Source of the DNA: Phytoamicus setariae
Lineage (GTDB): Bacteria > Pseudomonadota > Alphaproteobacteria > Rhizobiales > Rhizobiaceae
Assembly (NCBI RefSeq): GCF_016722925.1
Contig: NZ_JAEQNC010000001.1
Span: forward strand, 372,001 to 436,000
Length of the DNA stretch: 64,000 nucleotides
Direction of reading: 5' to 3'
Below the pieces are notes generated by a model that saw only the letters and a program-made list of their open reading frames with translations, did not search any database and was not told the origin of the DNA. The translations under genes and the position numbers were made by a program. This document shows positions 52,632 through 54,810 of the stretch, one piece after another. Each line of letters starts with the position of its first letter. The stretch's first letter is position 1.

Positions 52632-53708
52632 CTATGTCAGGGAGCGTACGACCGAACAGACGCATACCAATGTGAATATGGCTGGCAGCACGAACCGCAC
52701 ATTGTTGCGGATCTCGGCTCTCAGGAAAGGATAACGGCTGAAAACCGGGATATTGGCGTAAATCAGGCTGAGATGAACGAGCAGTGTCAGCACCAGGTAG
52801 AAGTAGCCGATCGAAATCATGAAGGCGATCGGCGAATTCACCGACATCGAACCCGGGAAACTCGATTCGAACGTGAAGCTGAGTGCGGCGAGCGCAAGCA
52901 GGGCGGAATAGATGATGCCGGCGTGGTCCAGCCGCAGTTTTTCCGGTGCCCAAAGTATGAAAAGCGAGACGGAAACGACGGCAGCGAAAGGTATGAAAAG
53001 GCGCAGCAGGTAGCGCGGCCAGGCTCTTTCGACCGTTGCCGTCACTGTGGCGCGGACGAACGGCTTGGCGTTCCAGCCATAGAACTGCTCGAGGGTGAAA
53101 CCGAGATTGCCGGGATGCCAGTCGGCGACCGAGAGGCTTTCGCTGATTGAGGACAGTTCCCGATCACGGTCATCGATCGTGAAGATGACCTCACTCGTCG
53201 GATAGCGGGCGGCCACGAAGGCGAAATCGAGCTTTTGCCTGTCGAACGGGAAAGCCGCCAGGTTGACCAAGATACGGAAATCGGCGTCGATCTGGCGCAC
53301 AACCGTGATGTCCCCCTCCGATGTCACCGAAACGGCAACAGACTGGGATCTCGGGTCGCTGAGCTGGTTGGTTATGGATACGTCGGGATGCCACATGGCC
53401 TTGAGTGCGCCTGTTGCTTCGCCACCGTAGAAATCCTGACGATAGACGCCGGCGGCGAGCGGGTCGAAGCCGTGTGAGTCGTCCCGCCAGGAAAGGGTAT
53501 ATTCAAGGCGCGCTGATACCTCTCCCTTGGTCTCCTCGATGCGCGAGATGTTCAGGACGCGGGCGGACAAATGGACTTTGACGGGCAGGTGTATTCCAGC
53601 CGGCAGAGGTTGAGGCGCGGTGCTTTCCGTTGCTGTAACGGTTTGTGGTCGCAGCCCCAGGAGAATAAACAGGGCAGCAAGCATCAACGACGATCTCGAA
53701 AAGCGCAT
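52632..53708 (-). CDS. Prokaryotic pentameric ligand-gated ion channel (Cys-loop receptor homologue)
   Basis: A 358-residue homologue of GLIC/ELIC. Signal peptide about 1-27. The extracellular beta-sandwich (about 35-228) has loop-A-type MWHPDVSITN (105-114) and the signature FPFDRQ (153-158); the two Cys-loop cysteines are missing, as in other bacterial members. TM1 about 230-253 contains the conserved Pro240. M2 about 262-281 is followed by ESSFPGS (281-287), aligning with GLIC ETNLPKT. M3 covers about 291-317 and M4 about 335-356. By that alignment, position -1' is Asp261, 6' Ser268 and 9' Leu271, which suggests cation selectivity. ATG 53708 follows the sensor stop by one base (TGA-C-ATG), so both are one operon. 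Confidence 0.85.
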   Translation of the reverse strand: MRFSRSSLMLAALFILLGLRPQTVTATESTAPQPLPAGIHLPVKVHLSARVLNISRIEETKGEVSARLEYTLSWRDDSHGFDPLAAGVYRQDFYGGEATGALKAMWHPDVSITNQLSDPRSQSVAVSVTSEGDITVVRQIDADFRILVNLAAFPFDRQKLDFAFVAARYPTSEVIFTIDDRDRELSSISESLSVADWHPGNLGFTLEQFYGWNAKPFVRATVTATVERAWPRYLLRLFIPFAAVVSVSLFILWAPEKLRLDHAGIIYSALLALAALSFTFESSFPGSMSVNSPIAFMISIGYFYLVLTLLVHLSLIYANIPVFSRYPFLRAEIRNNVRFVLPAIFTLVCVCSVVRSLT

Positions 53709-53709
53709 G

Positions 53710-54810
53710 TCAGTGCTCGTTGTCGGTGGTCAGGGAAGTGTTGGCCAGGAGAGGTTCTTGCAGGGGGATGCTGCGGATCCGGAGATAGGTGCTCAGGCAC
53801 ACCGCTGGATTGTTTACTTCCCCGCCAAGGCGGTCGGCTGCGAGCTTTTCAAGCGGTCGGAAGACCAGCGCACGGAGCATTACCATCAACACGCCGTAAG
53901 CGATCAGCAGACCGCAGATGGCAACAACAGCGACAGTAACCAGCGTCGCCCGGAAACCAGCTTCGATCGCGGTGAAATCCTTCGCCACGATCAGCGTTCC
54001 AATCATCTTGCCGCTGTAGTCGAGCAGCGGACGGTTGAGCAGGCCGAGCTGTATGTCGCCGAGCCTGGTGGTCGAACTTTCTGCTGAGCGAGTCAGATGC
54101 ACCAGTCCGCGCGATTGAAGATCGTCAAAAAGCTGGCTGTCCGTTGCTGCGCCCAGCTGCAACGCAGCTCCTTTTTCGCCGTGGCCGCCTTTGCCATCAG
54201 GAATGAATTGCGGGTCCAGGAAGATTGCAAAATCAGCACCTGTCGAGGACTTGGCCAGTTCCATGAGCGTCTTGAGGCTGACGCCCACTTCAACCGTGCC
54301 CACCACAACACCCTCGCTCCGAATGGGGGAAACTGCGCGTAGGCTCAGGCCGCTCAGGCCGATCTCGAGTCCTTTCTGTGACTTGGCATGCTTGTTGGCG
54401 GAAAGGATCATCGGGCGAATACGCGACAGGTCCTGGCCGTAATCGTCCGGACTCCAGACGCGCAGGAATGATTTCATGTCCGCGGTATGGAAATGCAGGA
54501 CGTCTGCCCCGGCATCAACCTTCAAGCTATCGAAGACCGGCTTCATTCTTGCCTGCAACGCCGTGCGGTCGCCCGTCCTCATCAGCTCGATGACCGCAGG
54601 GTCTTGCGCCAGAAGCTCCGAGTGGCTGACCGTGAGGCTTTCCGCCTGGCTCATCGTGGTGGTCAGCACCAGTCCGGTTGCCTCAATCTGCTCTTTCTCG
54701 CCGGCAGCAAGACTGCCGCGTCCATCGTTGTAGAAAATAAAGCCGCCAATGCCGAGAGTAAGTGCGATGATGAGAGAAGTAATCAATGAAAGGCGTCGTT
54801 CGAGCGACAT
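53710..54810 (-). CDS. dCache-type membrane sensor protein without output domain
   Basis: A 366-residue inner-membrane protein. TM1 (about 8-28, LSLITSLIIALTLGIGGFIF) is followed by a large periplasmic domain (about 30-285) with the dCache_3-like blocks VLHFHTADMKSFLRVWSPDD, YGQDLSRIRPMIL and GLEIGLSGLSLRAVSPIRSE. TM2 is about 290-315. The protein ends only about 50 residues after TM2: FRPLEKLAADRLGG looks like the first helix of a HAMP domain, but no methyl-accepting, kinase or cyclase domain follows. It is the first gene of a two-gene operon with the ion channel, one base apart. ATG 54810 is chosen over TTG 54819. The natural reading is a ligand sensor acting with the channel. Confidence 0.75.
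   Translation of the reverse strand: MSLERRLSLITSLIIALTLGIGGFIFYNDGRGSLAAGEKEQIEATGLVLTTTMSQAESLTVSHSELLAQDPAVIELMRTGDRTALQARMKPVFDSLKVDAGADVLHFHTADMKSFLRVWSPDDYGQDLSRIRPMILSANKHAKSQKGLEIGLSGLSLRAVSPIRSEGVVVGTVEVGVSLKTLMELAKSSTGADFAIFLDPQFIPDGKGGHGEKGAALQLGAATDSQLFDDLQSRGLVHLTRSAESSTTRLGDIQLGLLNRPLLDYSGKMIGTLIVAKDFTAIEAGFRATLVTVAVVAICGLLIAYGVLMVMLRALVFRPLEKLAADRLGGEVNNPAVCLSTYLRIRSIPLQEPLLANTSLTTDNEH

Follow-up and report, generated by a model that had tools for sequence, protein, structure and literature searches.

The 64,000-nucleotide stretch of Phytoamicus setariae DNA analysed here (contig NZ_JAEQNC010000001.1, hereafter ‘the window’) carries on its minus strand two adjoining genes, the first (54810 to 53710) encoding a membrane-bound dCache_3 sensor protein without output domain and the second (53708 to 52632) a pentameric ligand-gated ion channel (pLGIC). 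The two genes are a real, old and conserved unit, reciprocal in the genomes sampled. Sensor and channel very probably act in one function, and the data are best explained by a sensor that directly modulates channel gating, a reading that we hold to be reasonably likely. The chances are about even that the sensor represents the first dedicated auxiliary subunit to be described, as far as the literature searched shows, for a bacterial Cys-loop-family channel. It would then descend from a chemoreceptor whose cytoplasmic output was lost in one or two ancient events and which now reports across the membrane to a pLGIC; the resulting ligand-gated conductance would be made up of two proteins, each with a possible site for sensing. 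The conserved, old and reciprocal pairing, that is, the partner specificity, is new, as are nearly tail-less sensors; the type of unit has been glimpsed once in print. A split sensor–channel unit had been suggested in the original prediction, made from the letters of the window: its pairing proved conserved and reciprocal (35 of 35 channels in one group), and the idea itself turned out to have been voiced before, in passages of PMC549065.

Conservation of the gene pair

Both open reading frames (ORFs) were found where predicted: the sensor gene codes for 366 and the channel gene for 358 amino acids, and a single base, 53709, separates the sensor stop from the channel start (TGA-C-ATG). Short patterns taken from the window channel were run against 84,980 species genomes and yielded 16 relatives, and in all 16 a sensor gene lies directly upstream. 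Further channels came from genome samples, which share a few genomes. The search with PF02931 was positive in 24 of 397 genomes of the order, in 5 of 385 of the class (four of them over the cut-off), in 7 of 398 of the phylum and in 3 of 48 from the order of G802, and the window channel itself found 11 positives among 218 family genomes. After removal of duplicates (L056 of L003, L084 of L002 and L086 of L015), 57 distinct channels remained, of which 35 are directly preceded by a dCache_3 protein without output domain; the 22 unpaired channels have no such neighbour in view. With 35 distinct paired loci, the pair is not restricted to this genome. One channel counted as unpaired, L077, lies on a contig that begins 429 bases before it, leaving the upstream gene out of view, and the sensor profile found no match in that genome (71% complete). 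L079, a fragment, was counted as unpaired and omitted from the channel tree, and L075 (a 183-aa frame below the Pfam cut-off and with no match to the channel profile) was dropped.

The sensor gene precedes the channel gene in all 35 pairs. The spacing between them is −4 in 25 pairs, +1 in three, +3 in three, −1 in two, +4 in one and +16 in one, the channel start being taken as the in-frame start nearest to the sensor stop, a choice that favours small spacings; had the longest ORFs been used, the genes of L014, L015, L066 and L076 would overlap by 41–370 bases. The pair with a spacing of +16 (L058) has a TTG start, its closer ATG being out of frame. Conservation of the 1-base spacing seen in the window, for which the original prediction had proposed a test, is thereby ruled out. 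Plasmid-borne spread was likewise rejected, as the channel had no match in the plasmid collection and the sensor had four partial matches of <60% identity.

Phylogeny, reciprocity and age of the pairing

In a tree of 56 channels, a 100/100 branch sets all 35 paired channels apart from the unpaired ones, and a single change of pairing state is needed, against a mean of 17.1 with shuffled labels. With the root on the other side, as obtained by midpoint rooting, the paired channels form a clade. Some branches are long, including those of the paired channels L057 and L061, which makes the inner order less sure than the overall split. The paired group divides into two parts, of 28 loci (class I) and seven loci (class II), and one class II member, L076, comes from another class of the phylum. 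Genome G1163 carries one pair of each class, and G065 carries two class I pairs.

Class II (L088–L092, L061 and L076) is a second branch of the same sensor–channel unit. Its channels in five family genomes have 23–26% identity to the window channel, and their M2 differs, with IIIGGLFAVIALNFT in L089. The paired channel of L061 (3570–4937; 455 aa) has about 90 extra N-terminal residues, with the ligand-binding domain match at residues 126–319.

Sensors were searched for with a class I-type profile at E ≤ 1e-30, with up to nine candidates scored per family genome and all candidates scored in 29 further channel-bearing genomes; this threshold and profile could hide more distant stand-alone sensors. 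The 218 family genomes gave 13 matches, 12 of which adjoin the 12 channels, the 13th being a 719-aa receptor. The 29 further genomes gave 16, ten next to channels and six in frames of 677–895 aa. Taken together, the 247 genomes contain 29 matches, 22 of them stand-alone sensors beside channels and seven full chemoreceptors, each of the latter carrying dCache_3 and the signalling domain of chemoreceptors (MCPs). No stand-alone sensor away from a channel was detected in the 247 genomes with this profile and threshold, and none in the 20 genomes with unpaired channels, where all candidates were scored. Three genomes (G132, G160 and G165) hold both stand-alone sensors and full chemoreceptors.

The original prediction had considered that the sensor might be a recently truncated chemoreceptor. 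The seven MCPs are indeed homologues with a signalling domain, but a recent truncation is excluded: in a tree of 42 sensors, a 100/99 branch parts the 35 stand-alone sensors from the seven full-length relatives, so the truncation is old. Midpoint rooting of this tree groups class II with the full-length receptors (97/94), so that an old loss of the output domain on two occasions is as possible as a single loss.

Pairwise distances among sensors follow those among channels, with r = 0.84 for the 35 pairs, where 2000 shuffles reached at most 0.34, and r = 0.885 for the 28 class I pairs, where the highest shuffled value was 0.46. Given the distances of the neighbouring acyl-CoA-dehydrogenase-like gene, available at 12 loci, the partial correlation is 0.875, a value as high being reached in 0 of 5000 shuffles.

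The sensor protein

Pfam and hydropathy agree with the predicted architecture of two membrane helices around a dCache_3 domain, without an output domain. The dCache_3 match (residues 39–280; 53971–54696, minus strand) has an E-value of 1.6e-27 and 97.1 bits against a cut-off of 25.7; it spans model positions 5–236 of 239, covering both modules, and is the only family above its cut-off. No HAMP or output-domain match appeared in Pfam at E up to 1. Membrane helix 1 (approximately residues 9–29; 54724–54786) and helix 2 (approximately residues 294–314; 53869–53931) were called from hydropathy and lie within helices 3–68 and 280–328 of the predicted model, respectively. The tail (residues 315–366; 53713–53868) starts with a HAMP-like RPLEKLA and is then variable and of low model confidence.

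The single-chain sensor model (pLDDT 84.8, pTM 0.70) consists of a long helix 1, two Cache modules and a long helix 2, and has the double-Cache fold by comparison with solved structures in Foldseek. Against the double-Cache domains of DctB and Tlp3, the TM-score is about 0.5–0.6 by target length, with a root-mean-square deviation (rmsd) of 6–9. The first, membrane-distal module matches CitA far more closely (TM-score 0.85 by target length, 127 columns, rmsd 1.6). This CitA-like module is also the best-conserved part of the protein: over the 28 class I sensors it averages 3.0 bits per position, compared with 2.3–2.5 for the membrane helices and 1.5 for the tail. Helix 2 (2.46 bits) is conserved like the proximal Cache module (2.34 bits).

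Two arginines of the sensor, R117 and R158, align with basic positions of CitA, namely H69 and R107, which we take to be citrate contacts. Every one of the 35 stand-alone sensors, and also the chemoreceptor of L093, has arginine at the R117 position. As to ligand class, we infer a small anion, for instance a carboxylate. The dCache_3 literature found, including passages of PMC8694187, yielded no usable ligand. Table 1 of Upadhyay et al. 2016 (PMC4822843) counts 883 proteins with dCache_3; its ion-channel column holds a dash for this domain, as does, for that date, the entry for solved structures.

Tail length, counted as residues after helix 2 from the hydropathy call, ranges from 8 to 66 across the 35 stand-alone sensors, which is too short to accommodate the signalling domain of an MCP; this domain was indeed absent from the window sensor and from all seven other stand-alone sensors scanned. 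Two membrane helices are retained in all 35. The tail of the window sensor, RALVFRPLEKLA..., resembles by eye the first helix of HAMP, and tails of 42–66 residues look like a degenerate HAMP. Among the seven other sensors scanned, two had HAMP matches below the Pfam cut-off (L057, E 0.0058; L076, E 0.032). The tail is only 8–11 aa long in L053, L054, L058 and L060, which form a single branch of the tree, and the sensor of L015 terminates nine residues past KPL, so that its tail is 26 residues by hydropathy and about 17 from the conserved arginine.

The channel protein

The second protein has the β-sandwich ligand-binding domain, the Pro-loop proline and the four membrane helices, including M2, that are characteristic of a pLGIC, as had been predicted from its motifs. 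The Neur_chan_LBD match (residues 41–196; 53121–53588, minus strand) has an E-value of 2.6e-14 and 53.6 bits against a cut-off of 26. WHPD occupies residues 106–109, and FPFDRQ, the Pro-loop, residues 153–158 (53235–53252). Hydropathy and the predicted model agree on four membrane helices after the ligand-binding domain: M1 at residues 231–253 (52950–53018), the pore helix M2 at 262–283 (52860–52925; also aligned with GLIC), M3 at 293–317 (52758–52832) and M4 at 327–357 (52638–52730). The best solved relative of a 17-homologue channel profile is GLIC (Glr4197; E 3.7e-22), in an alignment that extends through M2 and places the ESSFPGS positions opposite ETNLPKT of GLIC; the top match in a single-sequence search with the window channel was DeCLIC. 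The single-chain channel model (pLDDT 81.1) matches pLGIC chains in a structure search (best E 6.9e-21), among them GABA-A, glycine-receptor and DeCLIC structures.

The suggestion that the channel might respond to pH finds little support, and GLIC-like proton gating none: G62 and L273 occupy the positions aligned with GLIC E35 and H235, both of which presumably have roles in proton gating. P154 of FPFD is invariant in 17 of 17 channel homologues, in line with PMC4795631, in whose abstract this proline is the one absolutely conserved residue of pLGICs. The acidic D261 immediately precedes M2, in which S268 and L271 correspond to 6′ and 9′ by alignment with GLIC, and D or E stands directly before M2 in all 17 channels of the first homologue set. 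As every known cation-selective pLGIC has shown a ring of acidic residues at its cytoplasmic mouth (passages of PMC9897478), cation selectivity is our guess for this channel, whose predicted pore is probably homopentameric.

Proposed mechanism and alternatives

We propose that the sensor acts as an accessory membrane subunit, its two helices placing the dCache_3 domain in the periplasm and hence, if this topology is right, on the same side of the membrane as the ligand-binding domain of the channel. A ligand would bind to the membrane-distal CitA-like module and shift the sensor membrane helices; without a cytoplasmic output domain, the movement would pass sideways to the channel and alter its opening, the contact and its direction being part of the proposal. 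The main reason for preferring a signal within the membrane or the periplasm is that the cytoplasmic tail has been reduced at least twice while the pairing was kept. Where the tail is near-absent (8–11 residues, or about 17–26), an exit of the signal via a cytoplasmic domain is hardly possible.

Several observations weigh against this proposal or parts of it. In 30 of the 35 sensors the tail still has 42–66 residues. Since the two genes are linked, the correlation of their distances speaks against partner swapping and indicates co-inheritance rather than contact. The R158 position is arginine in class I and phenylalanine in the seven class II sensors, which makes one carboxylate ligand for all sensors doubtful. 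The acidic residue before M2 is absent in 3 of the 28 class I channels (L057, L066 and L068), leaving cation selectivity across the group uncertain. Finally, Cache receptors usually act as dimers and pLGICs are pentamers, which complicates the stoichiometry of sensor to channel.

The sensor might instead be a dedicated assembly, trafficking or stability factor, with a Cache domain that is mainly structural or reports ligand before the channel is built. Conserved pairing and the 4-base overlap in 25 of 35 pairs fit co-translational assembly as well as they fit gating, and the sensor gene lies ahead of the channel gene in every pair. We nevertheless regard this role as rather unlikely: the sensory distal module, and not the membrane helices, is the best-conserved part (3.0 vs 2.3–2.5 bits), and it retains residues in common with the chemoreceptor of L093 that a pure chaperone would not need.

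Another account takes the sensor for a signal-capture protein, which binds or concentrates the ligand for the ligand-binding domain of the channel itself, with no signal passing from helix to helix. Passages of Tasneem et al. 2004 (PMC549065) suggest such preliminary concentration or sensing of ligands by operonic Cache and PBP domains, and loop C of the channel (GWNAKPF) is well conserved in class I, so that the channel may itself bind a ligand. A soluble binding protein would suffice for this purpose, yet none of the 35 sensors has lost its two membrane helices, and the second of them is conserved to the level of the proximal Cache module; this account therefore appears improbable to us.

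Signalling elsewhere, for example by mixing with full-length chemoreceptors via the HAMP-like tail, with the channel merely co-expressed, is very unlikely. The closest long relatives of the sensor in the genomes searched are indeed chemoreceptors (7/7), and the weak HAMP matches of L057 and L076 point the same way, but two lineages have nearly or largely lost the tail and kept the pairing, and no stand-alone sensor match at E ≤ 1e-30 occurs apart from a channel in the 247 genomes. Chance neighbourhood or a decaying chemoreceptor gene, in favour of which there is the missing output domain only, is refuted by the 35 of 35 pairings in one channel group, by reading frames open throughout and by the old split from the chemoreceptors, and retains practically no probability.

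Relation to known systems

The closest precedent is a predicted operon of Rhodopseudomonas, for which Tasneem et al. (PMC549065) proposed cooperation between a pLGIC and the product of a stand-alone Cache gene. By its published description it resembles the present pair in combining a simple pLGIC with a separate Cache gene; it differs in that it concerns one bacterium, and the relevant passages treat neither topology, partner specificity nor age. The same passages report PBP-II genes in other pLGIC operons, as well as fused modules, namely MCP-N plus Cache in Methanosarcina, Cytophaga and Microbulbifer, and PBP-I in Bradyrhizobium and Magnetospirillum. These fused channels share with our unit the joining of a pLGIC to an extra periplasmic module, which there belongs to the same chain, whereas the present one is a two-helix membrane protein in its own right. 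In DeCLIC, the fused module consists of two jelly-roll lobes. GLIC, the proton-gated channel of Gloeobacter and best-scoring solved relative by profile, is distant, and its E35 and H235 are not conserved at the aligned positions of the window channel. The dCache_3 chemoreceptors possess the same sensory domain and the motif SFLR...GDDL...GLE.G (L093), but differ by their MCP signalling domain, which does not fit into any of the 35 sensors.

A parallel of logic only is offered by the α2δ subunit of animal voltage-gated calcium channels, a membrane-anchored auxiliary subunit with double-Cache domains (PMC9901441 and PMC7351808). It combines dCache_1 with a VWA domain, a combination not found in the window sensor, which has dCache_3, and it serves an unrelated channel family.

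Among the papers found on prokaryotic pLGIC neighbourhoods, operons, Cache domains and auxiliary subunits, only PMC549065 treats a separate Cache gene, and those on DeCLIC deal with a fused domain; neither ‘Cache’ nor ‘operon’ is mentioned in the accessible text of PMC4795631. We found no later work describing a separate subunit that partners a prokaryotic pLGIC, in a search that left most subscription journals outside.

In our assessment, the roles of bacterial pLGICs in their hosts are largely open, and a conserved partner that itself contains a ligand-binding domain offers a way to the natural ligand. If the proposed mechanism is true, a chemoreceptor sensor has been re-plugged into an ion channel via membrane helices alone, in a logic parallel to that of α2δ. 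Sensors almost devoid of a tail provide ready-made minimal constructs for studying lateral signalling.

Neighbouring genes and a second channel operon

In the window, the pair has on one side a divergently oriented gene resembling acyl-CoA dehydrogenases, whose NCBIfam matches stay under the cut-offs, and on the other a convergent short-chain dehydrogenase gene; it is therefore a unit of its own by gene order. A fixed third gene was rejected, as none is general: the gene directly following the channel is CorA in 5, PhoX in 4 and YkuD in 3 of the 35 pairs. The gene for the CorA-type divalent cation transporter starts 31–126 bases after the channel on the same strand in L004, L005, L015, L017 and L083 (assigned by Pfam in L005, L015 and L017, by BLAST in L004 and L083), and CorA also occurs nearby in L002, L006, L007 and L008. 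Directly after the channel, also on the same strand, the PhoX phosphatase gene lies in L006–L008 and L010 and the YkuD L,D-transpeptidase gene in L011, L013 and L087 (Pfam in L008 and L011, BLAST in the rest).

A different channel operon was met in L059, L062, L063 and L064 (genomes G302, G149, G316 and G343 of the same order, family f44). It consists of genes for a glutamate decarboxylase, an ELIC-like pLGIC, a two-helix protein of PDC/Cache type and an 11–12-helix protein, in this order. The decarboxylase is above the TIGR01788 cut-off in all four loci. The pLGIC of L062 matches ELIC with an E-value of 2.3e-71, those of L059, L063 and L064 are 77–97% identical to it, and such a channel is present in 4 of the 20 genomes of the family. 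Pfam, run on L062 and L064, finds a domain of PDC/Cache type in the two-helix protein, which also has a long C-terminal part, and the 11–12-helix protein is an MFS member in L062. Since ELIC is described as activated by γ-aminobutyric acid (GABA) in the abstract of PMC3430861, a GABA-making enzyme adjoins a probable GABA-type channel in this operon.

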